From: Acidobacteriota bacterium
GTDB lineage: Bacteria > Acidobacteriota > Terriglobia > Terriglobales > Acidobacteriaceae
Assembly: GCA_003225055.1 (NCBI GenBank)
Contig: QIAU01000124.1
Span: 124,001 to 188,000, forward strand
DNA: 64,000 bases
Direction: 5' to 3'
Shown: positions 2,796-53,045 of the stretch, piece by piece
Layout: every line of letters begins with the position of its first letter
How positions within the stretch are numbered: the stretch's first letter is position 1
The notes under the pieces: generated by a model
What the model was told of the DNA's origin: nothing
What the model saw: the letters and a program-made list of their open reading frames with translations, nothing else
Databases searched by the model: none
Program-made: the position numbers and the translations under genes

Positions 2796-2831
2796 CCGAT
2801 TAGCGAGTTGGGGCCGACCTGGTGTTCCCCA

Positions 2832-6430: not shown

Positions 6431-6447
6431 TAAGGTGGTGGGCGCGA

Positions 6448-13788: not shown

Positions 13789-15585
13789 GTGAGAAAGCCT
13801 TACCGGGTTTTGTTGCCATTAACTCTAATTTGCCTTGCGACAGCAATCGCAGGTGCTCAGGCCACCGGCGTGGGCGGAGTCGGCATCGGGCCGACAGGCC
13901 CGGGCGGCAATGGGACGACCGCTCAAGGGGGCGGTTCGTTCAGGGTGCAGTGCCCAACCACTACACCCTTACACCCCACGGCTATTTCCAATTCCGCTCC
14001 CGGCACTCCCTTGACCGAAGCCGCAGAACCTGCCTACACGGGGCCGGCGGTTACACCAGAGACGGTGGGCGGGCAATCGTTGAGCTACACGCTCAACGGC
14101 GGCACCGTGAAGTGCCAGGAGATTTCGGGTGGGGACGGTTATTCCACCATGGCGGATGGGAACCAAATCTTCATGTTTTCGTTCGGTCCTCTCTCCGGCA
14201 TGGACTTAATCAAGAATGGTCAGGCTGGGACTCTGTTCGCCGCAGACTTTAACAATTACTACAACGAGCCTAATCAGCCGGCCGTTGCTGCGGCCCCGAA
14301 TGACACTCCAGATCCGACCTATGACCCAAAGCGCGCCAACAGCCTGAACGGCGGCATAGCCGATCCTGGCACCATCATGGAAATCGGGGTGCTGAACGGA
14401 AACATTCCGGCGCCCTTGATGGCGTTCGACGAGGACGACGAATTTTTCCTGACTTTGAGCAACGTGGGCATGATCATGCGGCCGGACCTGTTCGAGGAGC
14501 ACACGGTCCACTTCCACGGCTATCCCAACGCATCCTCTTATTACGATGGTGTGCCGGATGCGACCTGGGCGATCAATATCGGCGGCAGCGCCACTTACTA
14601 CTATGTGGCGCCTGATGCCGGCACCTACTTCTGGCACTGCCACATAACGCCGCCCGAACACCTGCAGATGGGCATGGTCGGCCAGCTCTATGTGCGACCG
14701 CGGCAGAACCGCGAGCCGGCGGGTACGAATCTCTACAATGCCGTTGCAGGCAGCGCCACCAGCGGAACGTTCGGTTCGTTACCGGGGCCCGGTATGCAAA
14801 GCGATCTGCGGACGGCCTGCCCAGGTACCGGGACGACTCCCGCGGCGGGATACACCTACGGTGCGAGTGGCTCCATCGATATTCTCTGTTCCGCCCCTAT
14901 CCCCCTTGCCGATACAGGGGCTGTGCAGGTAGCGGGTGCCAAGTATGCCTATGACGACGGCGACGGCAGCACGCGCTACGACATAGACGTCCCTATTCAG
15001 ATTCACGGCTTCGATCCCAACTTCCACTTTGTCGGCATGACGTTCAACCCGGAAGGATTCGCCGACATGAAGGACAAGTACTTCCTGCTGAATGGCCGCA
15101 GCTATCCCGACACGATCAGCGCTCCGTCCACCAATCCGGGGTATGCGGGTCTCACTCCGAATGCCCCAGCCCAGGACCCGACATCAAATGCCATCGGGAC
15201 GGAGGACTCCGACGGACTGACGCGCTATTCGCAACCGCTGCCGACCCTGATCACCCTGCATTCCAGCCCAGCCAATGGTCCATCGAGGGCTCTGCTGCGC
15301 ATTGCTGATCTCGATGTTACCGAGTATCAGACCCTCGCGTCATTGGGAATCCCCATGACGGTAGTTGGGTTCAATGCCAAGCTGCTGCGTGACCAGGCGG
15401 GAAATAACCTCTTCATCAAGACCAACTCCATCACGCTGGGCGGCGGTGAGTCGCTGGATGCGATTCTTGATGCTACGGGCGTTCCCCCAGGCACGTACTT
15501 CCTCTACACCCCGAATCTTGATCACTTGTCGAACGACGCCGAGAACTTCGGCGGTTTGATGACCGAAGTTGTGGTTGTGAACTAA
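13789..15585 (+). CDS. Secreted multicopper oxidase-like protein, subunit 1 (HxHG + HCH motifs)
   Basis: 598 residues from a GTG with a strong ribosome-binding site. A signal peptide (VLLPLTLICLATAIAGAQ) precedes a Gly-rich segment. The cupredoxin core carries TVHFHGYPNA (H241, H243) and YFWHCHITPPEHLQMGM (H283, C284, H285, H291, M296): a complete type-1 copper set with one HxHG and one HCH motif. A second cupredoxin-like region follows (IQIHGFDPNFHFVGMTFNPE; FLLNGRSYPDT). Only two of the four HxH motifs needed for a trinuclear copper cluster are here; the other two are in the next gene. It probably works outside the cytoplasm as part of a copper oxidase; substrate (metal ions or phenolics) is unknown. 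Confidence 0.85.
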   Translation: MRKPYRVLLPLTLICLATAIAGAQATGVGGVGIGPTGPGGNGTTAQGGGSFRVQCPTTTPLHPTAISNSAPGTPLTEAAEPAYTGPAVTPETVGGQSLSYTLNGGTVKCQEISGGDGYSTMADGNQIFMFSFGPLSGMDLIKNGQAGTLFAADFNNYYNEPNQPAVAAAPNDTPDPTYDPKRANSLNGGIADPGTIMEIGVLNGNIPAPLMAFDEDDEFFLTLSNVGMIMRPDLFEEHTVHFHGYPNASSYYDGVPDATWAINIGGSATYYYVAPDAGTYFWHCHITPPEHLQMGMVGQLYVRPRQNREPAGTNLYNAVAGSATSGTFGSLPGPGMQSDLRTACPGTGTTPAAGYTYGASGSIDILCSAPIPLADTGAVQVAGAKYAYDDGDGSTRYDIDVPIQIHGFDPNFHFVGMTFNPEGFADMKDKYFLLNGRSYPDTISAPSTNPGYAGLTPNAPAQDPTSNAIGTEDSDGLTRYSQPLPTLITLHSSPANGPSRALLRIADLDVTEYQTLASLGIPMTVVGFNAKLLRDQAGNNLFIKTNSITLGGGESLDAILDATGVPPGTYFLYTPNLDHLSNDAENFGGLMTEVVVVN

Positions 15586-15601: not shown

Positions 15602-17203
15602 ATGAGTGACGTGAATGAGAAAACGCGAAACGCGGCAACACTGACAGCGGTCGTGATGGTAGCGGTGGCGTTGCTGATCGGGGGAACGGCCCAAGCCGCG
15701 GTTCCCGGCATAACGGCCAGCGCGGGCGGAAGCTCCACGTTCAACCTGGTCGCCTCTCAGGGTTACATCTCGCAGCCGGATGGCGCCCTCATCTACTCCT
15801 GGGGCTACGGGTGCGCCACTAACAGTGCCACCTTTAAACCCTACACCACCGGCGCCTTTTGTCCCAGCATGCAGATTCCCGGGCCCACTCTGGTGGTGAC
15901 CCAGGGCGTGCCATTTACAGTGACCTTGACTAACAACCTTCCCAAGGGAGCGGGCAATACCTCGATCGTCTTCCAGGGCGCAACAGTCACTTCAACGGGA
16001 ACGGCGGGACTGCTGGCGGCGGAGGCTGCACCCGCGGGAAGCGTGACCTATAACGTCACCTTTGCGAACGCGGGTACTCACGCTTACTACAGCGGTACGC
16101 AGCCTGACCTTCAGATTGAGATGGGCCTTTATGGTGCCGTCGTGGTTTTACCCTCGACGATTCCCGCCGGGGCCAATTGCTCAACCGGCATACCCATTGC
16201 GCAACAACTGGGTGGTGGATCTACCGACTTTCGGCTCGCCGCCGCCGCCTATAACCACCCGGAGGCCTGCTACGACCGCGAATACCTCACCCAGTGGATG
16301 GAGTTGGATGCGCACATCCACAAGCAGGCAGAAAACCAGGTACAGGCCATCGCAAACTGTCCGGCCGCCAGTGTCTGTCCCACCGCACTCGATGTCAAGA
16401 CCGAGCCGTACCATCCGTCGTACTTCCTCATCAATGGGCGCTCCATGCCGGACAACATGGACCCGTCCTACGCACCCAACTACCCGAACCAGCCCTACAA
16501 CGCTAACCCCCACATGCACCCTGGAGACCTGGTCCTGGTCCGGGTCATCGGACAGGGACACTGGCAGCATCCTTTCCACGAGCACGGCAACCACGTGCGC
16601 ATCCTGGCGCGTGACGGCAACTTGATCCTGAGCCAGAACGATGCTGTCGTTCCTCCGAGGCTTGCCGGCCGCATGGAGTTTAATACCGACACCACTCCGG
16701 GCCAGGCGTTCGACGGAATCTTCTACTGGTCCGGAAAGGGCTTGGGCTGGGATATCTATGGGCACACAAACGCGTACGCGGTGGCTACTCAACCATGTGT
16801 CCCCGATGCCAATGGTTACTACACAAAGAATAGCGGAGCCACCGCCAGTTCACCGAACTACTACGAGTGGTGCGCCGACCATAACCACCCGCTGGAGGCC
16901 CATCCGGTGGGGCAGATCGGAAGTGGCGGCCCGGCGACGCAATTTGATCCCCTGGTTGCCACCAATGGTCTGTGGTACAACGGCACCCCTTACCTCGGGC
17001 CGGATGCCGTAGGGCGCAATCGCGGCCCGACACCTCTGCCCCCCAGTGCAAGCACCATGAACCCCTTTATCGAATCAGGCATCGCCTTCATGTGGCATTC
17101 CCACAATGAGCGCGAGATCACCACCAATGACATTTTCCCGGGCGGGATGCTGCAGATGATGCTGGTTGATCCGCCCACCTTTTGGATTGACGAAACGCTG
17201 TAA
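15602..17203 (+). CDS. Secreted multicopper oxidase-like protein, subunit 2 (HPxHxHG + HSH motifs)
   Basis: 533 residues, 16 bases after subunit 1, with AGGAGAGAG before the ATG. A hydrophobic signal (VVMVAVALLIGGTAQAAVPG) is followed by a type-3 cupredoxin domain (MQIPGPTLVVTQGVPFTVTL, TNNLP) whose copper motif is lost (THAYYSGTQPDLQIEMGLYG). The C-terminal half has QHPFHEHGNH (H323, H326, H328, H331) and FMWHSHNERE (H499, H501), the third and second HxH motifs of canonical multicopper oxidases. There is no HCH, so no type-1 site of its own. Together with the preceding protein the four HxH motifs are complete, which suggests a heteromeric enzyme. Processing and location are inferred from the signal peptides. 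Confidence 0.85.
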   Translation: MSDVNEKTRNAATLTAVVMVAVALLIGGTAQAAVPGITASAGGSSTFNLVASQGYISQPDGALIYSWGYGCATNSATFKPYTTGAFCPSMQIPGPTLVVTQGVPFTVTLTNNLPKGAGNTSIVFQGATVTSTGTAGLLAAEAAPAGSVTYNVTFANAGTHAYYSGTQPDLQIEMGLYGAVVVLPSTIPAGANCSTGIPIAQQLGGGSTDFRLAAAAYNHPEACYDREYLTQWMELDAHIHKQAENQVQAIANCPAASVCPTALDVKTEPYHPSYFLINGRSMPDNMDPSYAPNYPNQPYNANPHMHPGDLVLVRVIGQGHWQHPFHEHGNHVRILARDGNLILSQNDAVVPPRLAGRMEFNTDTTPGQAFDGIFYWSGKGLGWDIYGHTNAYAVATQPCVPDANGYYTKNSGATASSPNYYEWCADHNHPLEAHPVGQIGSGGPATQFDPLVATNGLWYNGTPYLGPDAVGRNRGPTPLPPSASTMNPFIESGIAFMWHSHNEREITTNDIFPGGMLQMMLVDPPTFWIDETL

Positions 17204-17212: not shown

Positions 17213-20200
17213 GTGATGGAGACAAGAGCCATGCGATCAAAACGCGTTAACGCCACTTTCAAAGCTGCCGTGTCTGCAGTGATCTTCCTGCTCCTTACAG
17301 CGGCCGTGTCCTTGGGCCAGGTGACGGTGACCCTCACCGCGTCACGGCAGACCACGATTCTGCCTGACGGCAATACTGTGCCCATGTGGGGCTGGACGTG
17401 CGACGCGGCTAGTGCGACCGCCGGCAACTGCCTGGCTCTAAATCGCACCCCCCAGACGGGTGGCACCGTCTGGCAGCCACCTCTGATCACGGCGCCCTAT
17501 GTGGCCACCGGAACTAGCCTGACGATCAACTTGACTAACAACCTCCCGGTCGAGACCTCATTGGTAATTGTCGGTCAGCTGCCGGGTGGTGGCCTGGGCA
17601 CCCCCGTTAGAGAGAGTGGACCGCGCACCGACGGGGCCCACGCCGGCCAGACCTCAACCACGTGGACCACCGTCGTTGCTGCAACGTTCACTCCACCGGC
17701 TCAAGGTCAACGTGTCAGGTCGTTCGTGACGGAAGCCACACCTAATACTGGTACGGCGAGCTACACGTGGAGCGCTCTGAAACCTGGAACCTATCTCATC
17801 GAGTCGGGAACCTATCCCTCGATTCAGGGTCCGATGGGTCTTTACGGAGTGCTGGTAGTTACCACCGCTCCAACCACCACGGCTGCGGGCACGGCTTATT
17901 CCGGCTGCGCGCCTCTAACGCCGGCCACGTGCGCAAGCGCGGCGACAACTAACTACTCGATTAACTACGATGCCGACGTACCCCTGCTGCTGAGCGAAAT
18001 TGATCCGGTGCAGAACTCGGCCGTAGAGCAGTTGGTGGAAACGTCTGCCGGGTGCCCGACGGCCACGCCCGGAACAGGAACCTGCACCGGTTCGCTGAGC
18101 GCCGCCATGGCGACCGCCAAGTGGACCCAGGCTTGCGGCGCGGCCCACACCTGTTATCCGGCGGCGGTGAACTACACGCCGCTGTACTTCCTGATGAACG
18201 GCCAGGCGTTCAACAAGACATTGGCGACCGGATTCTCCTCGGCAGCGCCCGTTGGCTCTGCCGCTTCAACCGGCAATGTTCTGCTGCGCTTTGTGAACGC
18301 CGGCCTGCATATGCACGTTCCATCCGTGAACGGGCTTTCCATGTCGCTGATCGCCGAAGACAGCAACGTTCTTGCGGACGTCGCTCTGGGCGCCGCCAAG
18401 ACAACCACCGTGGGTACAGTCACCACCGCAACGCCGAACCTCGCCGTGAGAGTCCAGAACGAAGTCTTCCTGCCTGCCGGCAAGGTGTACGACGTCATGA
18501 TCAACCCGGCTAACACCGCCACGCCGACGGCGGCTGGCACCTTTACTGCTGCCAACTATCAGGTTTTTGACCGCGAATTGAGCCTCTCTACCAACGGCAG
18601 CGCGCGCGACGGTGGTATGCAGACCGTTTTGCAGGTGGCCGGAGGCGGCGCGTGGGCCGCCACTAACCCCACAATTGTTGCTCCGGCTACTTACTACTGC
18701 GTACCGGGCGTGACCCTCAATGTGTCCGACACGGGCAAGGGAGTCATCGGGCAAGACGTGAACGTGTATGGCGTGAGTCTGCTTAACGCCGGCGTGGCTG
18801 CCGCGAACCACACAATAACTCCCTTCGGGGCTGCTGGGGGAACCGATTCTCTGACTCTGAACCCCAATGGCACCTTCACCTACACGCAGGCAGCTGCCAA
18901 TACTACCTGCGGCGGTTCGTTCACGTATTCAATAGACGGCACCGCGACGACCCAAACCGCTAACATTACTCCAACCACCCTGACAACAAAGCCGGTCGCG
19001 AATAACGACAGTTACGTGAGCAACCTTCAATCTCTGCTGCGCGCCGCTGCGCCCGGTGTTCTGGCAAACGACACCGATTCCCATAACTCCCCGTTGTGCG
19101 CGGCTCCGACGACTGCAACGAGCTGCCCGACGACAGGTCAGACGCTTACCGCGACGGCAGGAACAGCGAAGTTGCTCCTGAAGCCGGATGGCTCCTTCCT
19201 GGCGACCAACCCCGGCGGTGCGGCCGGCACGGCCACCTTCAGCTACGTGGCCATCAACGCGGAGAAGGCGGTCAGCAATACAGCGACTATCACAGTGAAT
19301 TTCCAGGCCGGCAGCGGCCTGCAGGTGAGAGTGCAGGATGCGAAGACGCAGGCGGCCGTCAGCGATTACAAGTGGATCATTGAGCAAGACCTCACCTTCC
19401 AAATCGATCCGACCAAGCAGGTCAATAGCGGCGGGACAGTTCCTCCTCCGACCCTGGGCACCAACCTCAACGCCAGCTACATGCCGGTAGTGGCGGTTGG
19501 CTGCACCGGACCGCAAAGCTGCGAGCGGGCCCAGACGGTCTATGACCCGACCACCAACACTCACGTTCCGGCAGTATGCGACGGCGGCATTTGCGTGCCC
19601 GCTTCCACATTGGGGGCTTCGTCTCTGCCTGTAACCCTACCGGGCGATGTGAACCTCCCAACGGCCGATGCCTTCGGCCGGCCCGCGTATTACTACATCT
19701 CCGTGTTGCCGGGCGATGCCGCAAACGCGTTCAATACCGGCAATGCCGCGGACCCCACTGTGGCGGGTAATTGTACTGCTGCTACCACCGCGACCGGGGT
19801 GGCCGTCACCTCGAACTGCGGGCATACCATGGGAGGTGCTCCCATTGCTCCCGGCCAAACGCAAGTTACAGTTAACGTGGAACCGAACCCGCTGCCCACC
19901 GCCACCGTGGTTGGGTGGGTGTTTGAAGATGACTGGCCGCTCAATGGTGAACCAGACACCGGCGGAGGTGTCGAAGGCGGCACTAACGCTCAGGCCTTCC
20001 CAACCGTAGAGCCGGGGCTGGAAGACTTCTCTGTCCTCCTCTGGGATGATGCCGGCGGCAGCGGTGACGCCACCGGGCAAATGACCTACGACATGTTCAA
20101 CATGCCGCTGACGAATGCCCTGAACGGAACCATCGATCCGCTCACCGGACTGGACGCGTGTCCCATCTCAAACGCCAGCGGCCAAGCCCAGCAGGTGGGC

Positions 20201-23200
20201 ACGATCATCGTGTGCCCGAAGTTCGAGTCCGACGGGGTAACCCTGTCCCCACTGGTGGGCCAGTTCGTGATCGAGAACCTCATGCCCGGCAGATTTGGAG
20301 TGATCGTGCACCCCGGAGCGCGGCGAGAAGCCAATGGGGAAGAATGGCTCCAGACCAATACCTTGGACGGCAGTCACCTCCTGGACTCGTTCGTCAAGGC
20401 GGCTGAGCCACACTATTTCCAGGAATACGGGCCGGGCGGATACCACGTGTTCTTCGGAATGGCCAATCCCAAGATCATTAACGGACGCCTGCCGGCAATC
20501 TGTAGCGGAGCACTTAATTCCAGCGGCGCTCCCGCAACCGGCACTGCCCTTAATTGCACCAACACGGTCAAAGTCCAGGTGACCAACCTGCACCAGGGCC
20601 GTTCGCCGAATGAGCAGCTTTACAGCAGCATGGTCGGCGCTTACGGCAGTTCACTCAATTACTCGCCGTTAAACTACACCACGTGCTACGCCTCTCTGGG
20701 CGATACGGACGGTGCGACGTTCGCCTTCCAGAAGTGCGATGAAAATGGAAACGTGACGTTCACCGGGGTTCCTGACGGGGAGTGGGGACTGGTTGTCTTC
20801 GACCAATGGGTGGACTTCATCGTTGACGGTTCCAGCAAATCCTTGAACGTAAATCACACCCAGGCCTGCAATTCGAGCAGTAGCCCGGGCACCTGCAACG
20901 TGAACTATGCCGCGTTCACCTGGCAGACGCACCTCTGGAATCGCAGCTACATGGATACCACAGGCCGGGGTAGCCCGGTGCTGCTGGGGGATGGGACCCT
21001 GGATCCATTGCAGAGCCCCGGACTGATTCAGACTCCAGTCCGCATCCGCATGCGAAACGGCAAGTTTAGTAACACCCAGTTCACCAACTTCGGCGGCGAG
21101 GCCCATTTCGATGAGACCTTCCCACTGTTCGCCTTCTATGTGGCTGAGTCGGACACCACGCGTTTCCGGGGCACCGGTGTGCACGTGGTCAACGACAACG
21201 GCGGAGCCCTGGACGCGTCAGGTCCTTACGCTGCCGTCCTGAACTCGGCGGAGACCTACTCGCTTCCCGCTGATCTGAGCGTACCAGGCGCGATCTACTG
21301 CGCCAGCGGGGACGCCGCCTGCAATAACAATACGTTCTTGATCAATCCAACCGGCTTGGCTTCAAGAGGAACGGCTGGAAGCACCAGCACCACCTCGGTT
21401 CAGTCCACCGGTCGAATTGATCCGGGCACGATCACCACGGAAGGCTGGCAAGGCGGTCTTAGTGAGTTCGACATGATCGACTGGGGCAAGCAGCCCTACT
21501 ACCCGGGCGAAAACGGCGGCATTCGCGGCCATGTGGTTTACAGTTCGACCCGACCGTTTGACGATCCTGGACAACTCTTCCAGAACCTTTGGGAACCGCT
21601 TGTTCCTGGCGTAACCATCAACCTCTATGAGGAAGGCACAGCGGCGGACGGAACCCAGACTCTGACTCTGGTGGATACGACCACCACCAGCAGTTGGGAC
21701 GCTTGGGCCCAGGGCTTCGCGGGCGCGGGACAACAGGGTTTTGGCGGAGGCACCGCTCCGAACGGAACTGCAGTTGCGTCCACTATCCCCAACATGAATT
21801 GCCCAGGCCAGCCCCCCACCGACCCCTTCTACAGCTACACGCTCGAGAACACGACCAACTACCTGAACCCCACGACCGCAGTGCCCCACAACTCCCAGTA
21901 CAAGTGCTATGACGGGTACCACAACCTCAACCAGGTGCAACCGGCTCCCTATGATGGCTTGTACCATTTCCCAAGCCCGTATTGCAGCAATAACCCTGGC
22001 GGCACTATCCCCGGGACAACCATCGTGTGCGCCACAGTAACCAACCCGGCTTACGGAATAGCCGGCCAGACCGGGGCCGTAAAGGGTGTGCTGCCGTCCC
22101 AGGCCACCTGCCAGGCAGGCAACTTGAACTGCACAGGCAAGTATGTGGTCGAGGCTGTGACTCCGCCGAACTACGAGATCACCAAGGAAGAAGACAAGAA
22201 CATCCTCATTGGCGACAACTTCATCGCGCCGGCGACAATGCAGTTTGGCGCCATCTCTAACATTTTCATTGTGCCCGACCAGGCTACCATCGGCAATGCC
22301 AACTCCTGTTTCGGCACCGGTGGTGGGTGTACGAATCCAACCACGGACCTGGGGCGAACTTTCAACATTGGCGGATTTGGCCCAGGCGGGAACATCGTGA
22401 TGCCGGCACCTTGCGTAGGCCAGATGCGAATCGTCCCCGATTACATGAGCATCTCGCCGGAAGGGGGCGAAGTGGCGCCCTTCGCAGGTGCTACACGGCC
22501 CTTGTGCGACCGCAAGGAGATCACGCTCAACGACCAGATGGAGTCAACCGCTGACTTCTTCGTTTGGACCAAGACGCCTGCTGCTTCTCACTTCACCGGG
22601 TTCATCACGGACGATTTCTCTTCCGAATTTGACCCCGCTGCACCGGCCTTCGGCGAGAAGTTTGCCGTGCCCAATGTTCCGGTAGCGATCAAGGACTACG
22701 CCGGAGTGGAAATTTCTCGCGTGTACTCCGACCAGTGGGGCTCCTTCAACGGGGTAACGTTCTCGACGTGGCAGGTGGACCCGCCAAACCCGACCGGTTA
22801 CGCGCCGGGGATGATGATTACCTGCATGAACGATCCGGGACCTATCAAAGATACGCGCGTCACCTCCCCGACCTTCGGGCAGATGATCACCGATCCTCTG
22901 TTCAACTCGAACTACAGCACGTTCTGCTACGAGAACCCCTTCATGCCGGCTGACACCGCCTACTTGGACACGCCGGTGGTGCCAACATCAGCGTTCGCCG
23001 AGGGCTACAACCCGCCCGATTGCGCTTACCCGGATGCAACGCCGGCCATCAAGTCCGTGACCGGTAGTGTCGCAGGACCTTGGGTCAGTGCGACCGGCCA
23101 GAATATAACCATCACTGCTCTGGGTGACGTGCTCGTGGCCAACAACGGTTATTCCGGGCCGGCAGCGACTGTGCCTCCCTACAACCAGAAATTCATCACT

Positions 23201-26200
23201 CGCCATTACGGCTTCGGCAATAGCCGAGGATCGGTTCGGATTAACGGCGAGGACGCGAACGTCAGCAGCTGGAGCGATTCAACCATCGTCGCCAGCGTGC
23301 CCGGAGATTTATCCTTGTGCAGCAATAGCAACCCGGCCTATGGCGTGGGTGGCACCAGCAACCCGAACTTCAACGCACGATGCGGCGAGTTGGTGATCAC
23401 GGCAGCCAATGGCAAGCAGTCTATTGATACCGTAACCATCACGGCTGGCGGCAAAACTCCTACGGTGCTGGCTGCGGGACAAACCATTCAGTCCGCCATC
23501 GATGCCGCCTCGCCGGGCGATCTGATCATCGTTCCTCCGGGGAAGTATTACGAAATGCTTCTGATGTGGAAGCCGGTGCGGCTGCAAGGCGTGGGCGCCG
23601 CTTCCAGCGTAGTAGACTCCAACACCCACCCGGCCGCCAAGCTGATCGATCCTTGGCGCAGGAAAGTGGCCTGCCTGTTCGGCTTGTCCTTGGACGGAGC
23701 TTACATCAACAACGCCCCCGTGGCCGGCGGCGGAACGGTCAACCCTTATGATTCGAGCGGCACCTACTCATGTCCGTACTACAGTTCCGTGACGGGCCAG
23801 TTGACGACTCAGAGCATGGTGGATCAGATACCGCTGGAGACTGTGATCGGCTGGGATGTCACGCAAAACGGCAATATCGCGGAACTCTTGCAGGAGCCCT
23901 CGCTCATGGGCGCCTACGAGGGCGCGGGCATTACAGTACTGGCTAAGGGCCTGGAGAACAACAACCAGCCGGGCGTTTGCGACAATACGACAGTTGGGGG
24001 AGCACCCATTAACAATGGCTGCATTCCGCTTAATGCCTGCGCCGCGTACGCAAACCCCTTGGGAGCCTGCACAAACTCCCCGACGAGTACTGTCGGCGGC
24101 GCTGTCGTTAATAACACCATTGGGGACTGCAACACGACGTCGCCGTTCTACAAGACGAACTATCTGTGCAATCCGTCGCGTATTGACGGCTTGACCTTCG
24201 CCGACAGTTCCCAGGGGGGTGGCGGCATGTTCATCCATGGCTATGCCCACTACCTGGAAGTTGCCAACAACCGCGTCTACAACAATGCCGGCACGCTTGG
24301 CGGCGGCATCATTCTTGGCCAGGCTGAAACTCCGCCGCCGACCTTCGATAACAGCATCAACACGATCATTGTGACCACCCCAGGCTCGGGCTACACGTGC
24401 CCGGGAACGGCCACTACCTGCAACGTGTCCGTCACCATCTCGGTACCACCACGGGGCGGTGTGAGGGCTACAGCAGTGGCAACGGTCAATGCAACTCTGC
24501 ACCAGGTCACTGCGATAACGGTTATCAATCCCGGCCGCGGTTATATCACGGTTCCCACGGTCACCATCGCTCCTCCTGCTCGTTGTACCACTGGCTGCGT
24601 GACCGCGACCGCGACCGCTCAGCTCAATCCCGGCGTGATTGAGCAGGCGTTTATGCTGAACCACCACGTCTATATACACAACAACTCGGTCACGCAAAAC
24701 ACCGCTTACGGCGACGAGTTGAATTCAACCACCCCGGCAGCCGCTGGTGGGGTGACGGTCTGCGATGGTTCCGACTACTATAAGTTCCAGTTCAACTGGG
24801 TATGCGGAAACCTGAGCACGGGCAACGGCGGCGGCATGTCGCACTTCGGGTTCTCCTACTACGGCGACATTGAACACAACACTTTCCTCTTTAACCAGAG
24901 CACCAATCCGACGCTGCCCACTCATGGTGGCGGGCTCATCATCGAGGGTGTGCCCCCGGATGGCACGGTCTGCGAGGGCAACGCCAACGTGGCTGACTTC
25001 GATTGTGCTCCTGCGCTCTCCGACGGCATTGGCCCCGGCCTCGTGGTCAATGCCAACCTGATCCAGGGCAACACCGCCGAAAGCGGCAGCGGAGGCGGTC
25101 TCCGGTTCCAGCATGTCAACGGGAGTGAGGTGCAACGTGCCCTGACAACCGTTGTGTCCCCGGCCACCACGCCGAACACGAATGTGCTGGCCAACTGCAC
25201 TCTGAACAACAACACATACTTCACCCCCGGATCATTCGGTGCCGGATCGTTCGGTGATGCACCGAATCAGTGCCCTGCGTACAGGGTCAGGGTAACCAAC
25301 AACATCATCGCCAATAACGTTGCGGGGTGGGCAGGAGGCGGTATCTCCATCCACAATGCAATCGGCATTGACTTGATCAACAACACCGTGGCATCGAACG
25401 ATACAACGGCTTCGGCTGGAGTGCTGTTCGACGCCGGTGGAGCACCCAATGCCAGCACCCCCCCACCGGGCTGCGACCCGACGATCGTTCCTCCTCCGCC
25501 AGCGTGCAGCAGTTCGTCAATCACGACGTCGACGAACCAGCCGTCAGGATTGGCGACAGAAGTACATGACGCCAACTTCCTGGGAGCTATGGCTGGGGCA
25601 ACCGGTTGCATTCCCAACCATCCGAATTGCAAAACCGTCTCGACGCCTATTGTGCTCAACGACCTGCTCTGGCAGAACCGGGCGTTCCACATCAGTGTGG
25701 GAACTGCTGGCACAGTGACGACGACCACGCAGACGCAGTCCTCAGTCGTGCTGAATCCGACGCTGAAACAGGCCACTACGGGCCAATGCGTCGGTGGAGC
25801 CAGCTACCTGGAGATCGGCGTGATCGGGGGTTCCGGCGGCTCTGCGCCAGCACCGCAGCACTCCATCGTGTCCGACAGCGGAACGTCGAACTTTGTCAGT
25901 CAGTACTGCAACGGTTCACGCGTGCCTCCGGAAATCGCCAATAGTGTAACCTTCTGCACGGCTGGCAGCGGCGGCGCCAATAACGCTGGATGCCTCTATC
26001 CCGGATCGGTTGGGGTGCCGGCGGGCGTTCCCGACGCCAGCAATTCCACCCCGCCGTTTGGCCTCAGCCCGGCGGCAACGGTGGACGAAGGTAATAACTG
26101 GATCAACCTCTATTACGGGCCCCTATCCACGGTCAACTCCTCGAAGACAGTGGGGGCGGCGGCCTACGGCGAGCCCTTGGGGGACTACGCTCTGAGGGCT

Positions 26201-27031
26201 CATAACAACGCCGGCGTGGCGAACATGGCGGGTTACCCGCCAGTGCCAGCCACCGACTTCTTCGGCCACAGCAGGACGGGGGGAGTCGATGCCGGTGCGG
26301 TCCAGTTCACCACCGGGGCCTCCGCGAGTACCGGCGGGCCGTCCTACAGCGTGCTGCCGAACCCGCTTAACTTCGGCAATGTGCAACTGGGCGCAACCCT
26401 GACCACAGCCACAGCACCCGTTTTGTCTGTGGACGTCAACAATACGGGCGACACCGCACTCACGCGTGGCACAGCAGCTGCCATTTCGGGCACGAACGCG
26501 AACCAATTCGCGATCGTAACCAATGGCTGTACGGCCACCAGCCTGCCCATCGCAGGGACTTGCGCCATCACGGTTCGATTCCTGCCGACCAGCGCAGGGG
26601 TCAAGACTGCGACTCTGAGCATCAGCTACGGAGGCGTATCTCAGCCGGTGACTCTGACGGGAGCGGGTTGGGCGGCGGTGACGGTGACCCCGGCAACGAC
26701 CGCGACAGCCCCCTACTCCTTCGGAGCGGTCGCGGCCGGCACAACCAGCGCGCCGACCACGTTCACGCTGACAAACCCAGCGGGGAACCCAACTCTGAAC
26801 ATCGCCGCCATTACCTTCTCGTCGACCTACTTCTACCGGGATGGCCCGGCAGGCACGGCCACGGGAGGTACTTGCGGCTCAAGCCTAGGAGGAGGAGCGA
26901 CTTGCACGATCCTGGTGGTCTTCTCACCGCCGCCCTCGACGCAACTCGGGGTGGCGACAAGCGCAACTATGAGCGTCTTCGACAACGCGCCCAACAGCCC
27001 GCAAACGGCGTCGCTGACTGGGACGTATTAG
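17213..27031 (+). CDS. Giant 3272-residue exported multidomain protein
   Basis: Nine bases after subunit 2, same operon. A signal peptide (SAVIFLLLTAAVSLGQ) leads into multicopper-type cupredoxin domains (about 35-480) that have lost their copper ligands: GTYLIESGTYPSIQGPMGLYG replaces the HCH region near residue 200, and LHMHVPSVNG near 365 replaces HPxHLHG. Then come a cadherin/VCBS-like domain (about 590-710, PGVLANDTDSHNS), several SdrD/Cna-B-like beta modules (about 900-1930, for example VVGWVFEDDWPLNGEPD and GGIRGHVVYSSTRPFDD), an IPT/TIG-like domain (about 1945-2080), a pectate-lyase-like right-handed beta-helix (about 2087-3020, starting GQTIQSAIDAASPGDLIIVP) and two ASH/choice-of-anchor-D domains to the end. 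It is probably a surface scaffold or adhesin working with the two copper proteins. ATG at 17216 or 17231 are alternative starts. Confidence 0.85.
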   Translation: MMETRAMRSKRVNATFKAAVSAVIFLLLTAAVSLGQVTVTLTASRQTTILPDGNTVPMWGWTCDAASATAGNCLALNRTPQTGGTVWQPPLITAPYVATGTSLTINLTNNLPVETSLVIVGQLPGGGLGTPVRESGPRTDGAHAGQTSTTWTTVVAATFTPPAQGQRVRSFVTEATPNTGTASYTWSALKPGTYLIESGTYPSIQGPMGLYGVLVVTTAPTTTAAGTAYSGCAPLTPATCASAATTNYSINYDADVPLLLSEIDPVQNSAVEQLVETSAGCPTATPGTGTCTGSLSAAMATAKWTQACGAAHTCYPAAVNYTPLYFLMNGQAFNKTLATGFSSAAPVGSAASTGNVLLRFVNAGLHMHVPSVNGLSMSLIAEDSNVLADVALGAAKTTTVGTVTTATPNLAVRVQNEVFLPAGKVYDVMINPANTATPTAAGTFTAANYQVFDRELSLSTNGSARDGGMQTVLQVAGGGAWAATNPTIVAPATYYCVPGVTLNVSDTGKGVIGQDVNVYGVSLLNAGVAAANHTITPFGAAGGTDSLTLNPNGTFTYTQAAANTTCGGSFTYSIDGTATTQTANITPTTLTTKPVANNDSYVSNLQSLLRAAAPGVLANDTDSHNSPLCAAPTTATSCPTTGQTLTATAGTAKLLLKPDGSFLATNPGGAAGTATFSYVAINAEKAVSNTATITVNFQAGSGLQVRVQDAKTQAAVSDYKWIIEQDLTFQIDPTKQVNSGGTVPPPTLGTNLNASYMPVVAVGCTGPQSCERAQTVYDPTTNTHVPAVCDGGICVPASTLGASSLPVTLPGDVNLPTADAFGRPAYYYISVLPGDAANAFNTGNAADPTVAGNCTAATTATGVAVTSNCGHTMGGAPIAPGQTQVTVNVEPNPLPTATVVGWVFEDDWPLNGEPDTGGGVEGGTNAQAFPTVEPGLEDFSVLLWDDAGGSGDATGQMTYDMFNMPLTNALNGTIDPLTGLDACPISNASGQAQQVGTIIVCPKFESDGVTLSPLVGQFVIENLMPGRFGVIVHPGARREANGEEWLQTNTLDGSHLLDSFVKAAEPHYFQEYGPGGYHVFFGMANPKIINGRLPAICSGALNSSGAPATGTALNCTNTVKVQVTNLHQGRSPNEQLYSSMVGAYGSSLNYSPLNYTTCYASLGDTDGATFAFQKCDENGNVTFTGVPDGEWGLVVFDQWVDFIVDGSSKSLNVNHTQACNSSSSPGTCNVNYAAFTWQTHLWNRSYMDTTGRGSPVLLGDGTLDPLQSPGLIQTPVRIRMRNGKFSNTQFTNFGGEAHFDETFPLFAFYVAESDTTRFRGTGVHVVNDNGGALDASGPYAAVLNSAETYSLPADLSVPGAIYCASGDAACNNNTFLINPTGLASRGTAGSTSTTSVQSTGRIDPGTITTEGWQGGLSEFDMIDWGKQPYYPGENGGIRGHVVYSSTRPFDDPGQLFQNLWEPLVPGVTINLYEEGTAADGTQTLTLVDTTTTSSWDAWAQGFAGAGQQGFGGGTAPNGTAVASTIPNMNCPGQPPTDPFYSYTLENTTNYLNPTTAVPHNSQYKCYDGYHNLNQVQPAPYDGLYHFPSPYCSNNPGGTIPGTTIVCATVTNPAYGIAGQTGAVKGVLPSQATCQAGNLNCTGKYVVEAVTPPNYEITKEEDKNILIGDNFIAPATMQFGAISNIFIVPDQATIGNANSCFGTGGGCTNPTTDLGRTFNIGGFGPGGNIVMPAPCVGQMRIVPDYMSISPEGGEVAPFAGATRPLCDRKEITLNDQMESTADFFVWTKTPAASHFTGFITDDFSSEFDPAAPAFGEKFAVPNVPVAIKDYAGVEISRVYSDQWGSFNGVTFSTWQVDPPNPTGYAPGMMITCMNDPGPIKDTRVTSPTFGQMITDPLFNSNYSTFCYENPFMPADTAYLDTPVVPTSAFAEGYNPPDCAYPDATPAIKSVTGSVAGPWVSATGQNITITALGDVLVANNGYSGPAATVPPYNQKFITRHYGFGNSRGSVRINGEDANVSSWSDSTIVASVPGDLSLCSNSNPAYGVGGTSNPNFNARCGELVITAANGKQSIDTVTITAGGKTPTVLAAGQTIQSAIDAASPGDLIIVPPGKYYEMLLMWKPVRLQGVGAASSVVDSNTHPAAKLIDPWRRKVACLFGLSLDGAYINNAPVAGGGTVNPYDSSGTYSCPYYSSVTGQLTTQSMVDQIPLETVIGWDVTQNGNIAELLQEPSLMGAYEGAGITVLAKGLENNNQPGVCDNTTVGGAPINNGCIPLNACAAYANPLGACTNSPTSTVGGAVVNNTIGDCNTTSPFYKTNYLCNPSRIDGLTFADSSQGGGGMFIHGYAHYLEVANNRVYNNAGTLGGGIILGQAETPPPTFDNSINTIIVTTPGSGYTCPGTATTCNVSVTISVPPRGGVRATAVATVNATLHQVTAITVINPGRGYITVPTVTIAPPARCTTGCVTATATAQLNPGVIEQAFMLNHHVYIHNNSVTQNTAYGDELNSTTPAAAGGVTVCDGSDYYKFQFNWVCGNLSTGNGGGMSHFGFSYYGDIEHNTFLFNQSTNPTLPTHGGGLIIEGVPPDGTVCEGNANVADFDCAPALSDGIGPGLVVNANLIQGNTAESGSGGGLRFQHVNGSEVQRALTTVVSPATTPNTNVLANCTLNNNTYFTPGSFGAGSFGDAPNQCPAYRVRVTNNIIANNVAGWAGGGISIHNAIGIDLINNTVASNDTTASAGVLFDAGGAPNASTPPPGCDPTIVPPPPACSSSSITTSTNQPSGLATEVHDANFLGAMAGATGCIPNHPNCKTVSTPIVLNDLLWQNRAFHISVGTAGTVTTTTQTQSSVVLNPTLKQATTGQCVGGASYLEIGVIGGSGGSAPAPQHSIVSDSGTSNFVSQYCNGSRVPPEIANSVTFCTAGSGGANNAGCLYPGSVGVPAGVPDASNSTPPFGLSPAATVDEGNNWINLYYGPLSTVNSSKTVGAAAYGEPLGDYALRAHNNAGVANMAGYPPVPATDFFGHSRTGGVDAGAVQFTTGASASTGGPSYSVLPNPLNFGNVQLGATLTTATAPVLSVDVNNTGDTALTRGTAAAISGTNANQFAIVTNGCTATSLPIAGTCAITVRFLPTSAGVKTATLSISYGGVSQPVTLTGAGWAAVTVTPATTATAPYSFGAVAAGTTSAPTTFTLTNPAGNPTLNIAAITFSSTYFYRDGPAGTATGGTCGSSLGGGATCTILVVFSPPPSTQLGVATSATMSVFDNAPNSPQTASLTGTY

Positions 27032-27043: not shown

Positions 27044-27610
27044 ATGATCAACCAGCCATTCGTGCCCATCCGGATGCTGCTCGCGAGGTTTCTCGCGGGC
27101 AGCATCGTCTTTTTATCGGCCTTGGCAGTTCGAGCAGTGGAACCACCTGGACAAGTGGATCACACGGTATCTTCGCCGATGGCTTCCGCGAAGCTTGTCT
27201 CTGCCCGTCCCCCTTCGGTTACCCAAACTGTAAGCAGCGAGCGCGCGGCCATGGTGTACAGCCGTATCTGGGGCGTCGACGACCTCAGGCTCAGGGAAAC
27301 CGCCTCGGGCTCCATGATCCGCTTCAGTTACCGGGTAGTGGATGCGACCAAGGCGAAGGTGCTCAATAACAAGAAGTTCAGTCCCACGCTGACCGATCAG
27401 ACCTCGGGAGCGAGGTTAGAGGTTCCGGTTATGGAGAAGGTCGGACAGCTGCGCCAAACTGCGACACCTGAGAACGGTCGAGAATACTGGATGGTGTTCT
27501 CTAACAGAAGTCATATTGTGAAGCCCGGAAACCGTGTGACCGTAGTCATCGGTACTTTTCGGGCGCAAGGACTGGTGGTCGAGGCGAGTACCCTATCGCA
27601 CACCCGCTAA
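27044..27610 (+). CDS. Small exported protein of the multicopper operon, unknown function
   Basis: 188 residues, 12 bases after the giant gene. A signal peptide (MLLARFLAGSIVFLSALAV, inner ATG 27074) is followed by a soluble domain with YSRIWGVDDLRLRETASGSM, IRFSYRVVDATKAKVLNNKK and EKVGQLRQTATPENGREYWM. The motif set looks like a conserved family, but I do not know a function for it. A 15-bp hairpin with a U-tract is embedded in the signal-peptide codons, so expression may be attenuated relative to the upstream genes. It is probably periplasmic or surface-exposed and may assist the copper proteins; that is inference from position only. Confidence 0.75.
   Translation: MINQPFVPIRMLLARFLAGSIVFLSALAVRAVEPPGQVDHTVSSPMASAKLVSARPPSVTQTVSSERAAMVYSRIWGVDDLRLRETASGSMIRFSYRVVDATKAKVLNNKKFSPTLTDQTSGARLEVPVMEKVGQLRQTATPENGREYWMVFSNRSHIVKPGNRVTVVIGTFRAQGLVVEASTLSHTR
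27073..27116 (+). terminator. Intrinsic terminator-like hairpin inside a signal-peptide coding region
   Basis: Arm 27073-27087 (GATGCTGCTCGCGAG) pairs fully with 27092-27106 (CTCGCGGGCAGCATC), 14 Watson-Crick pairs plus one G-U, closed by the four-base loop GTTT. GTCTTTTTATC follows. It lies 42 bases after the stop of the giant gene but within codons 11-21 of the next gene. It may act as an attenuator or as the real operon terminator. Confidence 0.7.
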
Positions 27611-27952: not shown

Positions 27953-29197
27953 ATGCATTTTCGCAGCATGGCAATTCTTGTCCTAACTTCGATGGGACTG
28001 GCGCAGGCCCTTCCCGCTACCGCGCCCGCTAACCCGGGAAAGGCCCCGCGCAAGGCGACCGGTCTCCGGCCGAGCGGTGCGGTACCTGTGCCCATTAGTG
28101 GCCACGTTGGTGCCGACGACCCTGTTATCACTATACAGGGCATCTGTGACGCTCCTGCTGCGAGCAAAACGGCAAAGCCGAGACCTAATTCGACCTCAGC
28201 ATCCCATAAAGCAGCCGACTGCAAGACGGTCATTACTCGCTCGCAGTTCGAGCGCCTGGCCGCTGCCTTACAACCAGACATGACCCCGTCCTTTAAGAAG
28301 AAGCTGGCTGAGCTTTATCCCACCATGATTATCATGGCTCACACGGCTGAGAAGCGAGGATATCAAAGCAAGCCGAATTTCAAAGAGTTGATGGAGTTTT
28401 CCCGTATTCAGATACTCTCTACAGAGCTGAATCGCGCGGTAGAAAAGGACGCACAAGAAGTTACACCCTCGGACATTGAGAAATACTACAAAGACAACCC
28501 TGACTCCTTCGAGCAGGTGACCGTGGACCGGATCTTTATCCCCAAAGGCCCACGCAAGCAAGCCCCAAACGAAAAATCGAGTGCCGAGACGGCGGAGGAA
28601 TCCGCGGAGTCTGGCAATAATACGATGAAGAACGAGGCGGACGCTCTCGAAACGCGCGCTGCTGCTGGGGAGGACTTCGATAAATTACAGAAGGAAGCCT
28701 TCGAATTGGCCGGACTAACCCCTCCCCCCTCAAGCACGAACGTCAAACTTACGCTGAAGGAATTGCCAGCGGATGAGCGGGCAATTCTCGACATGCAGCC
28801 TGGCGAAATATCCCATGTTTTCCCTGAGAGCAACGGATATTTCATCTACAAATTCTTGTCCAAGGAACGAAAGCCCCTTGACGACAAAACGCAGGAGGAC
28901 CTCAAATCCAAACTGTCACAACAACGTTTCCAGCAGACAATGGATCAACTCCATAAATCGTTTTCGGCAACGCTAAATGAGGCTTATTTCGCACCGGAGG
29001 CGCAAGCACGCCCCCAGCGTCCCATGCCAGTTCCTAGGCCTGTACCGCAAGCAGGTACGGGACCGGCCACCACTAGCGCGGTGGCGGTTCGTCGGCCTGC
29101 CTTGGTGCCCGTGACGACTCCGGCGGCTCCAAATACCGAAGTGCCGGGCAGCGATAACCACAACCCTGGTGCCCCCCCCGCGGAACCTCAGAGATAA
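27953..29197 (+). CDS. SurA/PpiD-like periplasmic chaperone, parvulin-type
   Basis: 414 residues with GGAGG upstream. A signal peptide (MAILVLTSMGLAQALPATAP) is followed by a SurA-like N-domain (VITRSQFERLAAALQPDMTP, LMEFSRIQILSTELNRAVEK, SDIEKYYKDNPDSFEQVTVD) and a diverged parvulin region with an acidic insertion (about residues 200-225) and the family ending LDMQPGEISHVFPESNGYF then IYKFLSKERKPL. The C-terminal 70 residues are Pro-rich and disordered. Unusually, the segment before the N-domain has extra Cys residues (GICDAP, ADCKTV). It would help fold exported proteins; its position beside a 3272-residue secreted protein suggests a dedicated role. Confidence 0.8.
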   Translation: MHFRSMAILVLTSMGLAQALPATAPANPGKAPRKATGLRPSGAVPVPISGHVGADDPVITIQGICDAPAASKTAKPRPNSTSASHKAADCKTVITRSQFERLAAALQPDMTPSFKKKLAELYPTMIIMAHTAEKRGYQSKPNFKELMEFSRIQILSTELNRAVEKDAQEVTPSDIEKYYKDNPDSFEQVTVDRIFIPKGPRKQAPNEKSSAETAEESAESGNNTMKNEADALETRAAAGEDFDKLQKEAFELAGLTPPPSSTNVKLTLKELPADERAILDMQPGEISHVFPESNGYFIYKFLSKERKPLDDKTQEDLKSKLSQQRFQQTMDQLHKSFSATLNEAYFAPEAQARPQRPMPVPRPVPQAGTGPATTSAVAVRRPALVPVTTPAAPNTEVPGSDNHNPGAPPAEPQR

Positions 29198-29729: not shown

Positions 29730-30209
29730 ATGTGCAGGAAGAATGTCTGTATTGTGATGGTGGCCTTGATGGCAAGCTACGCGCTGGCCCAGGGTCATAC
29801 TCGACGACCCCAGCCCAGACCACCGGTCGTTGGCCTGCGAGTCATGCACGGACCTACGACAGTCACGGGGGAGGGAACGACCACGCCGTCGGGGCTGAAA
29901 TACTGGGACTTGCAGATCGGGACCGGGGGGGTGGCAACCAAGGGGAAGGCGGTAAAAATCCACTACACCGGATGGCTGGAGTCTGGGAAAAAGTTTGAGA
30001 GTTCGGTGGATGAACGGCAGCCGGTCATCTTTTTGCTTGGCTCTTCTAAGGTGATTCAGGGTTGGAATGAGGGCATCGAGGGCATGCGGGTCGGCGGCAA
30101 ACGGCAGCTATGGGTTCCCCCATCCCTCGCTTACGGTCATCGCGGCTCGGAGGTCGTTCCCCCGAATTCGACCCTGATATTTGAGATCGAGATTCTGGGC
30201 GTTCAGTAG
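29730..30209 (+). CDS. Exported FKBP-type peptidyl-prolyl cis-trans isomerase
   Basis: 159 residues. A signal peptide (KNVCIVMVALMASYALAQ) leads to a standard FKBP domain from about residue 55: KYWDLQIGTGGVATKGKAVK, IHYTGWLESGKKFESS, VIFLLGSSKVIQGWNEGIEG, MRVGGKRQLWVPPSLAYGHR and the final LIFEIEILGVQ. The pocket-lining residues typical for FKBPs (Tyr and Phe of YTG.../F.SS, V-I-x-G-W, and LAYG) are kept, so it should be active. Together with the SurA-like gene it forms an exported folding module downstream of the copper proteins. An AGGGAAAAGGG run lies before the start. Confidence 0.9.
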   Translation: MCRKNVCIVMVALMASYALAQGHTRRPQPRPPVVGLRVMHGPTTVTGEGTTTPSGLKYWDLQIGTGGVATKGKAVKIHYTGWLESGKKFESSVDERQPVIFLLGSSKVIQGWNEGIEGMRVGGKRQLWVPPSLAYGHRGSEVVPPNSTLIFEIEILGVQ

Positions 30210-33138: not shown

Positions 33139-33291
33139 GAAAAACCAATTTAAGCACTAGGGCGCCGTAAACCGGGCGCATACCTCGATATTGCCTTTTG
33201 TGGCGGCTCGCTGAGAGAGGCATGAGACGGGCCTTGTCACGCTGTCTTTCCCGAGACTGCGCGTTTGGCTGCTTGTAAGAGAAGTGAATCA

Positions 33292-34398
33292 ATGAAGCTA
33301 AATCTGGGCGTTTATCTATTTGATGCATTTGCCATCGCGCTCGGCGTGTCGCTGCTGCTGACCGGCTGTAATCACCCGAGTCAGGATCAAGCCAAAGCTG
33401 GTGGCGAGGACCTGCCGGCTGATGGCCCGGTTCGCTACGTCAAGGTCACACCGCAGACCCTGCCCGAGACACTGGATCTTGCGGCAAAGGTACAGGCTGA
33501 CCCCACGAAGATAGTACGGATTTTTCCGCCGGCAAGTGGCCGTGTTCTCTCGATCGACGTCAAGCCCGGTGACCATGTCCGCCGCGGACAAGCTGTTGCC
33601 AGCCTAAGCAGCGCCGATGTCGCCAATGCGCAGTCAGATTACGCGAAAGCCAACATCGAAGCGGAGCGTGCAACCCGAACTATGGAGCGGCAGAAAGTCC
33701 TCGTCGACCGGGGCGCTGTAGCCGAAAAGGATTACCTCGACGCACGTGCTCAAGCGGATGAGGCACGCGCGGAACTCGCCCGGGCCAAGCAGCGGCTCGA
33801 CATGCTCAACGTCAGCCCTTCGGCGACAACGGATCGCGTCACGCTGGTTTCTCCCGATAGCGGTGTAGTCCTGGACGTCAGCGCTGCGCCTGGCGAGTTC
33901 TCCAAATCCCTCGAATCAGCGAATCCCTTGATCACCATTGCCGACCTCAACACAGTCTGGATCGTAGGCGACGTTTTTGAAAAGGATGTTGCCAAGGTGG
34001 GGCGTGGTAAACCGGCCACGGTCACGCTCCAGGCGTATCCCGGACAGCAATGGAGCGGCCGCATCGACTCTCTTTCTGGGGCTCTCGACGCCACAACCCG
34101 AAGTCTGAAAGTGCGGGTCGTGCTTCCCAATCGCGATCGGCGGTTCAAACCGGAGATGTTTGGGACGATTCAGGTGGAAGCCGGAGCCCATCCGGCGCTA
34201 GTCGTTCCCGCGACAGCAATCGTCCGCGAGGGCAACGCGACGATTGTCTTCGTGAAGAGCGCCGGAAAGCCGGAACAGCGGACGGTAACGGTTGGGCAGA
34301 CGGTCGATGGAAATGTCGAGATTCTGACCGGCTTGCACGCCCGCGATGAAGTAGCGGCCGACGGCGCCGAACTTCTCAAGGGAGGGCCGCCCGAGTGA
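33292..34398 (+). CDS. Heavy-metal RND efflux periplasmic adaptor (CusB/CzcB type), lipoprotein
   Basis: 368 residues from ATG 33292; the longer frame from 33265 lacks support. The N-terminus is a lipoprotein signal (IALGVSLLLTGC, lipobox LLTGC). The membrane-fusion fold follows: FPPASGRVLSIDVKPGDHVR (lipoyl half), a coiled-coil hairpin (QSDYAKANIEAERATRTMER to ARAELARAKQRLDML), VTLVSPDSGVVLDVSAAPGE, and the beta-barrel/MP region (LNTVWIVGDVFEKDVAKVGR; VVPATAIVREGNATIVFVKS). No His-rich N-terminal extension was seen, so the metal is not predicted. It links the inner-membrane pump to the outer-membrane channel and overlaps the pump gene by one base. Confidence 0.92.
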   Translation: MKLNLGVYLFDAFAIALGVSLLLTGCNHPSQDQAKAGGEDLPADGPVRYVKVTPQTLPETLDLAAKVQADPTKIVRIFPPASGRVLSIDVKPGDHVRRGQAVASLSSADVANAQSDYAKANIEAERATRTMERQKVLVDRGAVAEKDYLDARAQADEARAELARAKQRLDMLNVSPSATTDRVTLVSPDSGVVLDVSAAPGEFSKSLESANPLITIADLNTVWIVGDVFEKDVAKVGRGKPATVTLQAYPGQQWSGRIDSLSGALDATTRSLKVRVVLPNRDRRFKPEMFGTIQVEAGAHPALVVPATAIVREGNATIVFVKSAGKPEQRTVTVGQTVDGNVEILTGLHARDEVAADGAELLKGGPPE

Positions 34399-37463: not shown

Positions 37464-37477
37464 GGAGGTTTGAGAAC

Positions 37478-45969: not shown

Positions 45970-45977
45970 GATTTCAC

Positions 45978-46967: not shown

Positions 46968-47017
46968 AGTCGTCTTACAATCTGTAGCCCACAGTTCAGC
47001 TGTCGATTGAAGAACAG

Positions 47018-47040: not shown

Positions 47041-47056
47041 TGATCTCCGTTATGAC

Positions 47057-47920: not shown

Positions 47921-48001
47921 GAATCATGGACCTCCTCGTTGGTTCACACTCACTGCCCTACTGCTTCGAAAACCGGATGGAGCCCAGCTTTCGTTTTCCC
48001 C

Positions 48002-53042: not shown

Positions 53043-53045
53043 CGC

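Follow-up and report, generated by a model that had tools for sequence, protein, structure and literature searches.

Introduction

Two-domain multicopper oxidases are trimers in which the trinuclear site takes its histidines from domain 1 (D1) of one protomer and domain 2 (D2) of the next, so that the homotrimer has a trinuclear site at each of its three interfaces, and in type C enzymes the T1 copper lies in D1 (PMC13151041). The six-domain oxidases (ceruloplasmin, MnxG, and the related factors V and VIII) also contain three cupredoxin pairs, some of them copper-less. Closer to the locus studied here is the Slit_1812-1818 cluster of Sideroxydans lithotrophicus ES-1, in which three tandem genes for extracellular oxidase-like proteins were reported in 2017 (PMC5566968, in the part dealing with this cluster). 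According to the relevant passages of a 2025 description, these encode two cupredoxins with oxidase motifs and a larger one that lacks them and has adhesin and polysaccharide-lyase-like domains, the cluster proteins reach higher levels on magnetite than with Fe(II)-citrate, similar clusters occur in Burkholderiales and others, and the authors call the roles of the proteins unknown (PMC12016527). The gene trio has therefore already been noticed in print, in a few papers on iron-oxidizing bacteria, and its mechanism is left unexplained there. In the passages on this cluster, the two papers (PMC12016527, PMC5566968) contain no one-site division, trimer model, separable-stalk forms, or Acidobacteriota members.

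The window analyzed here, a stretch of 64,000 nucleotides of Acidobacteriota DNA, encodes a trio of the Slit_1816-1818 type, with three tandem genes for putatively exported cupredoxins, the third larger and motif-less; the likeness rests on the description of the ES-1 cluster, as far as the passages cited cover it, plus the Sideroxydans locus L038. With the type C two-domain oxidases, the trio shares the two-domain fold, and a D1 T1 motif and D2 HxH motifs are recognizable across its subunits. Those enzymes are homotrimers with three full sites, whereas here there are three different subunits and a 2300-residue stalk, with one site in the assembly that we propose below. In the six-domain oxidases, the pairs are joined in one gene product, whereas the trio consists of three open-reading frames with their own starts and stops, and its T1 lies in the leading domain of a cupredoxin pair. 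Extracellular multicopper proteins linked to metal oxides have also been described in Geobacter (OmpB) and Leptothrix (MofA), but each involves one oxidase gene where this locus has three. A limited search of the open-access literature returned no heteromeric multicopper oxidase with one trinuclear site across two gene products.

Results and discussion

Organization and conservation of the gene trio

The third gene of the trio is a giant open-reading frame at 17213-27031 (+), encoding 3272 amino acids with no internal stop, whose start is more likely ATG 17216, right behind GTG 17213 and preceded by GGAGA. It closes a tight operon with subunit 1 (13789..15585, +; 598 aa) and subunit 2 (15602..17203, +; 533 aa), both putatively exported two-domain cupredoxins, with 16 bases between the first two reading frames and 9 bases between subunit 2 and the giant. 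The giant begins with a signal-peptide-like N-terminus (aa 2-36; 17216..17320, +), judged from the sequence as a hydrophobic stretch whose position is conserved, and continues with the subunit 3 body of two copper-free cupredoxin domains (aa 37-486; 17321..18670, +), fused to a long stalk. The original prediction of an exported 3272-residue protein, third in an operon, was thus correct as to the reading frame and its place, and the N-terminus fits export. Gene 4 (27044..27610, +), encoding an exported-looking protein of 188 aa whose family is unknown, is a conserved member of the operon; it follows the giant in 36 of the 46 loci where this could be tested, and six of the eight short-form loci described below also have it.

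The genome containing the window carries the subunit 1-subunit 2 pair in four copies (contigs C98, C34, C101, and C139), a congener and one further family member carry one copy each, and the third gene adjoins the pair in all six of these copies. The copies on C34, C101, and C139 are the trio loci L017, L018, and L019, and the giant on C101 is split (L018 7275-12116 and 12139-14133) by a frameshift or an assembly error. Relatives of subunit 2 were found at 178 places in a scan of 84,980 species, and the best 80 of the 178 were taken, whose hosts include Acidobacteriota, Burkholderia, Paraburkholderia, Collimonas, Cupriavidus, Sideroxydans, and others. The original prediction suggested looking for gene triplets of the same order, and these recurred widely: of 85 loci (L021 and L032 being the same contig), 79 have the complete triplet in that order, five are cut by contig ends, and one (L046) has a broken giant. 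Complete giants are mostly about 2700 to 3330 aa long, and five shorter reading frames look broken. In one annotated Paraburkholderia record examined, the trio genes are annotated as hypothetical, and a plasmid record of Cupriavidus metallidurans CH34 has no annotation in the trio stretch.

A reverse search of 297 Acidobacteriota genomes with profiles of the giant N-terminus and of subunit 2 found the former in 12 genomes and the latter in 13, all 12 being within the 13. The two matches lie side by side except for a truncated giant in G227 (contig C50, L112 7350-10001), which is without the first part of cupredoxin D1 and has neither subunit 1 nor subunit 2 nearby. The trio is strictly conserved and linked, and its linkage spans Acidobacteriota and Proteobacteria. 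Since most of the giant's length is adhesin-like and beta-helical, it could be imagined as an unrelated adhesin or pectate lyase lying beside two oxidase genes by chance, a suggestion already contradicted by this linkage and by the paralogy of its N-terminus to subunit 2 shown below, and one that we find hardly credible.

Cupredoxin fold and paralogy of the three proteins

Pfam scored subunits 1 and 2 as Cu-oxidase families and gave no cupredoxin match for the giant N-terminus in a single-sequence search; single-sequence Pfam and NCBIfam searches together left the giant's cupredoxin pair and most of its modules undetected. Comparison of profiles aligned the giant N-terminus with subunit 2 at a probability of 99.6 (E 2e-23). 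An AlphaFold2 model of giant residues 32-486 aligned with the two-domain laccase 2zwn (Z 22.8, 274 residues, 3.1 A), indicating that the N-terminus has the body of a two-domain oxidase, and the same model also matches nitrite reductases. This model was cut from a read-through prediction of subunit 2 and the giant, whose genes share a frame; to fold the two jointly, and for no other purpose, the stop codon was treated as an amino acid, and no cellular read-through is claimed. Structural alignment of the subunit 2 model (VIA-align, as for the giant) gave 3gdc (Z 23.4) and 3g5w (Z 22.9), and the best PDB relatives of subunits 1 and 2 were the two-domain oxidases 3g5w, 2zwn, and 3gdc. We take 3g5w and 2zwn to be type C enzymes, which agrees with the motif alignment below. 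The two cupredoxin domains are thus assigned from models for subunit 2 and the giant and from the sequence profile for subunit 1. A cupredoxin fold in the N-terminal part of the giant had been predicted, and both that fold and copper oxidase genes beside the homologues of the giant were found.

Comparing the domains separately, D1-D1 profile comparisons gave 92.7% for subunits 1 and 2, 99.0% for subunit 2 and the giant, and only 18.5% for subunit 1 and the giant, while the corresponding D2-D2 values were 80.6, 93.2, and 78.1%, and all D1-D2 comparisons were at or below 4.2%. The weakest link, between D1 of subunit 1 and D1 of the giant, is bridged by subunit 2. By these profile and model comparisons, the giant N-terminus is a paralogue of both subunits, which are paralogous to each other, and all three are related to the homotrimeric two-domain oxidases.

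Division of the copper ligands between two subunits

In subunit 1, D1 holds the T1 motif and half of the trinuclear site, and D2 is copper-free. The motif HTVHFHG (aa 238-244; 14500..14520, +), which aligns with HTIHWHG of 3g5w, contains one T1 His and two His of the trinuclear site; H238, H241, and H243 are present in the 80-81 long forms that cover the motif (with one P at H241) and in 8/8 short forms. The second motif, FWHCHITPPEHLQMGM (aa 281-296; 14629..14676, +), which aligns with WYHCHVNVNEHVTMRGM of 3g5w, contains the T1 Cys, His, and Met together with another two His of the trinuclear site, and H283, C284, H285, H291, and M296 are found in 83/83 long forms and 8/8 short forms. The T1 motifs lie in the N-terminal domain, aligned to 3g5w residues 27-127, an arrangement as in type C that holds for subunit 1 only. 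Copper nitrite reductase (NirK), which has a T2 centre without the HCH trinuclear motif, was considered as an identity and rejected because subunit 1 has HCH in 83/83 long and 8/8 short forms.

Subunit 2 has a copper-free D1, the other half of the trinuclear site in D2, and no T1 Cys. Its motif HPFHEHG (aa 323-329; 16568..16588, +) is present in 84/84 long forms, a count to which the search pattern itself contributes, and in 8/8 short forms, which were found by profile. Within FMWHSHNEREITTNDIFPGGM (aa 496-516; 17087..17149, +), H499 and H501 are present in 84/84 long forms and 8/8 short forms. Two subunit 2 patterns, W[QE]HPFHE and AFMWHSH, served to pick the 80 loci, so the conservation of the subunit 2 motifs in them is partly built in, a bias that does not affect subunit 1, the giant, or the eight short forms. 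Long-form subunit 2 has the further invariant residues H304, H306, H388, H427, C399, and C424 (84/84), of which H304, C399, and mostly C424 are missing in the short forms; these may form an extra metal site or a disulphide.

All four copper motifs are lost from the cupredoxin pair of the giant. The corresponding positions are TSLVIVGQ (aa 115-122; 17555..17578, +), YLIESGTYPSIQGPMGL (aa 194-210; 17792..17842, +) in place of the HCH motif, LHMHVPSVNG (aa 365-374; 18305..18334, +) in place of HPxHxHG, and VFDRELSLSTNGSARDGGM (aa 451-469; 18563..18619, +) in place of the second D2 HxH. The replacement of copper motifs claimed in the original prediction was seen in profile alignments, in which YLIESG of the giant falls on FWHCHI of subunit 1 and LHMHVPSVNG on HPFHEHG of subunit 2. 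The fourth motif was positioned by eye against MIHDHVDTHTTNGDKPDGGIM of 3g5w for the giant and likewise matched by eye for subunit 2, and subunit 1 is covered by the profile alignment.

The motif set of 3g5w, with HTIHWHG and WYHCHVNVNEHVTMRGM in D1 and HAIHTHG and MIHDHVDTHTTNGDKPDGGIM in D2, is therefore distributed such that the D1 motifs recur in subunit 1, the D2 motifs in subunit 2, and none in the giant, a pattern with few or no exceptions among the 81-84 long forms of each subunit. By motif, the canonical site (two His, Cys, and Met for T1, and eight trinuclear His) is complete only for subunits 1 and 2 jointly. Type C enzymes have both halves of the trinuclear site in every subunit, whereas subunit 1 is without the D2 half, subunit 2 without the D1 half, and the giant without either. 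Judged from these motifs, the division between subunits 1 and 2 is complementary and non-overlapping. The original description of the giant's neighbors as two copper-bearing subunits held as to their constant linkage and required the correction that D2 of subunit 1 and D1 of subunit 2 are copper-free as well.

Because neither subunit 1 nor subunit 2 has a full site, subunit 1 might instead be a blue-copper carrier or relay with no trinuclear site, and the trio might serve extracellular electron transfer without O2 reduction, which would suit the iron oxidizers among the hosts (Sideroxydans, L038) and the multihaem cytochromes elsewhere in the window. We regard this as quite improbable, as all eight trinuclear His are conserved and complementary in both branches and would be needless for a pure T1 carrier.

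Short forms with a separate stalk

The search of the Acidobacteriota genomes also yielded eight divergent triplets whose third protein is small, with no giant stalk, and the same division of ligands is found in 8/8 of these loci. The free dead subunit is 341-644 aa long (674 in L110), the two shortest consisting of almost only the two domains and the others having small extra domains. Stalk profiles matched a large reading frame right upstream of subunit 1 in six of the short-form loci, one fused stalk-subunit 1 reading frame in L106, and, with a longer flank, a stalk reading frame in the eighth (L107/L116). The separate stalk frames are 1778-2648 aa where the contig allows, and the short-form stalk frames together align with giant residues 869-3032. 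Among the short-form loci, the stalk thus has a gene of its own in 7/8 and is joined to subunit 1 in 1/8; in the window lineage it is part of the subunit 3 protein. The dead subunit and the stalk are separable, and the finding of the same modules fused in different ways suggests that subunits and stalk work in one joint assembly.

These loci also bear on the original picture of a dead oxidase on an adhesive stalk, which proves only partly right. The dead pair and the long multi-domain extension are both there, but the pair is a paralogous subunit that occurs free in eight loci; being a paralogue of the two-domain subunits and a free protein in those loci, it is best read as a core subunit.

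Proposed assembly of the oxidase

The best-supported mechanism, and one that we hold to be reasonably probable, is a split-site heterotrimer with a separable stalk, for which we infer the stoichiometry, ring placement, and copper binding given here and the substrate and secretion route considered further below. On this view the trio would make a single exported multicopper oxidase whose three unlike two-domain subunits form a ring; it would be related to the homotrimeric type C enzymes but retain only one of their three trinuclear interfaces. D1 of subunit 1 would supply T1 (H238, C284, H291, and M296) and four trinuclear His (H241, H243, H283, and H285), and D2 of subunit 2 the remaining four (H326, H328, H499, and H501), with the N-terminal 490 residues of the giant closing the ring as the third, copper-free subunit. 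T1 on subunit 1 would take up the electron from the substrate, and O2 reduction would take place where subunits 1 and 2 meet. The 2300 conserved downstream residues (SdrD-like, IPT, and beta-helix) would act as a second module, holding the enzyme at its extracellular target.

Every copper ligand lies in subunits 1 and 2, and it is conceivable that these two alone are the oxidase, as a heterodimer or higher oligomer, and that the dead pair of the giant, with the long multi-domain region that it carries, is an adapter tethering them to the stalk, which is how the original prediction saw it. The dead subunit is stalk-free yet conserved in the eight short-form loci and is therefore probably needed for more than tethering, and rings in the two-domain family are completed by three subunits (PMC13151041). 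An adapter role is in our judgment unlikely, and we prefer the heterotrimer.

Joint folding of subunit 2 and the giant gave good domain folds (pLDDT 71, pTM 0.52), and the top Foldseek matches of the fused model were ceruloplasmin, factors V and VIII, and Mnx over about 1000 columns. Superposed on the six-domain oxidases, the model had a TM of about 0.2 and an rmsd of about 20 A, and the relative placement of subunit 2 and the giant is therefore not supported by it. A fused model of subunits 1 and 2, from locus L022 rather than the window, was poor (pLDDT 53.8).

A more far-reaching reading, which we offer tentatively and at somewhat less than an even chance, is that a homotrimeric ancestor gave rise to three subunits with one shared site, that the dead third was kept as architecture, that a conserved 2300-residue module changes between fusion partners, and that the result is a split counterpart of ceruloplasmin in extracellular mineral oxidation. 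If true, the trio would be a natural counterpart of both the homotrimeric two-domain and the fused six-domain oxidases and would show dead subunits persisting as architecture. The proposal offers a mechanism, open to experiment, for a group of uncharacterised proteins whose levels rise during solid-iron oxidation, and would explain the genes called hypothetical in the Paraburkholderia record.

Modules and conservation of the stalk

Behind the cupredoxin pair, the giant contains cadherin-like or bacterial Ig modules (aa 487-697; 18671..19303, +), where Pfam Cadherin_4 and Big_9 match at the corresponding place in L048 and L038. The first part of the stalk, assigned through homologues, has SdrD_B/CarboxypepD_reg-like and IPT/TIG modules (aa 698-2085; 19304..23467, +), and the second is a predicted right-handed beta-helix (aa 2086-3035; 23468..26317, +), with Beta_helix matched in homologues. 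Lineage-specific choice-of-anchor-D/ASH domains form the C-terminus (aa 3036-3272; 26318..27028, +), and the giant from aa 3051 on is occupied in under half of the homologues. Of the modules named in the original prediction, ASH was matched in the window protein itself (E 3e-18), while Cadherin-like/Big_9, SdrD_B, TIG/IPT, and Beta_helix were significant in homologous giants and not in the window protein alone, with SdrD_B in 12/13, TIG/IPT in 5/13, and Beta_helix in 6/13 (best 3.9e-6). Comparison of the stalk profiles with PDB sequences found no relative. NosD was rejected as an identity for the giant, since its match (E 8e-4) was far below the family cut-off and is taken to reflect generic beta-helix similarity.

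Mean pairwise identity was 0.65 in the cupredoxin pair, 0.53 in the cadherin-like modules, 0.65 and 0.70 in the two middle segments, 0.61 in the beta-helix, and 0.28 in the ASH domains. The stalk (0.61-0.70) is thus as conserved as the cupredoxin pair of the giant (0.65), and only the C-terminal ASH part is variable. This level of conservation argues that the stalk is not a mere spacer and does not favor the plain reading as an adhesive stalk; it would more probably bind something specific or act catalytically. The general domain searches showed no surface anchor, and docking of the enzyme on a surface or substrate, which had also been proposed, may nonetheless occur.

Candidate substrates

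By analogy with the ES-1 cluster, a reduced metal or mineral surface is the likely substrate and a plant phenol a less likely one, a reading that rests on one published proteome of another organism. The second option leaves the heterotrimer as proposed and concerns its substrate, the enzyme being laccase-like on plant phenols or polysaccharide-bound lignin with the beta-helix binding the plant polymer. The third protein of the Sideroxydans cluster has polysaccharide-lyase-like domains in its published description (PMC12016527, passages on the cluster), comparable to the beta-helix here, many hosts are soil Acidobacteriota and Paraburkholderia, and the neighbors in the window include UxaE, GH3, GH28, and GH2. 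Such sugar genes are absent among the conserved neighbors of the trio, however, a type B two-domain oxidase is slow and was judged an unlikely lignin degrader in vivo (PMC13151041), and the Sideroxydans cluster responds to magnetite, as its description states (PMC12016527). We consider plant phenols somewhat doubtful and favor the metal or mineral substrate for the heterotrimer.

Neighboring genes

Type II secretion-like genes lie upstream of the trio in 16 of 85 loci (e.g., L020, L021, L038, L040, L064, L067, L096, and L099), comprising secretin-like genes, which carry TPR and in one case cohesin, and at six loci also pseudopilin genes, and may constitute a dedicated type II secretion system. 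This resembles OmpB, whose secretion runs through an atypical type II system (Mehta 2006, as cited in the relevant part of PMC5566968). SCO1-like genes lie near the trio in five of 85 loci, and both kinds of neighbor are in keeping with export and copper loading. The ES-1 cluster, as described in the passages cited, has a SCO1/SenC gene and similar clusters occur in Paraburkholderia, whereas neither SCO1 nor type II secretion-like genes were found adjoining the trio in the window.

Elsewhere in the window, genes for pectin and galacturonate degradation (UxaE, GH3, GH28, and GH2) occupy 1876-8274, and an RND efflux operon at 33265-38764 encodes a membrane fusion protein, an AcrB-type pump, and an outer-membrane channel. 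A cluster at 41175-53552 (-) with multihaem cytochromes, NHL propellers, a SurA-like isomerase, cytochrome b, and a Rieske protein possibly encodes an electron-transfer complex. Shortly downstream of the trio are genes for PPIC-type and FKBP-type prolyl isomerases (27953-29197 and 29730-30209), and mofB, beside mofA of Leptothrix, is also a prolyl isomerase according to the passage concerned (PMC5566968).
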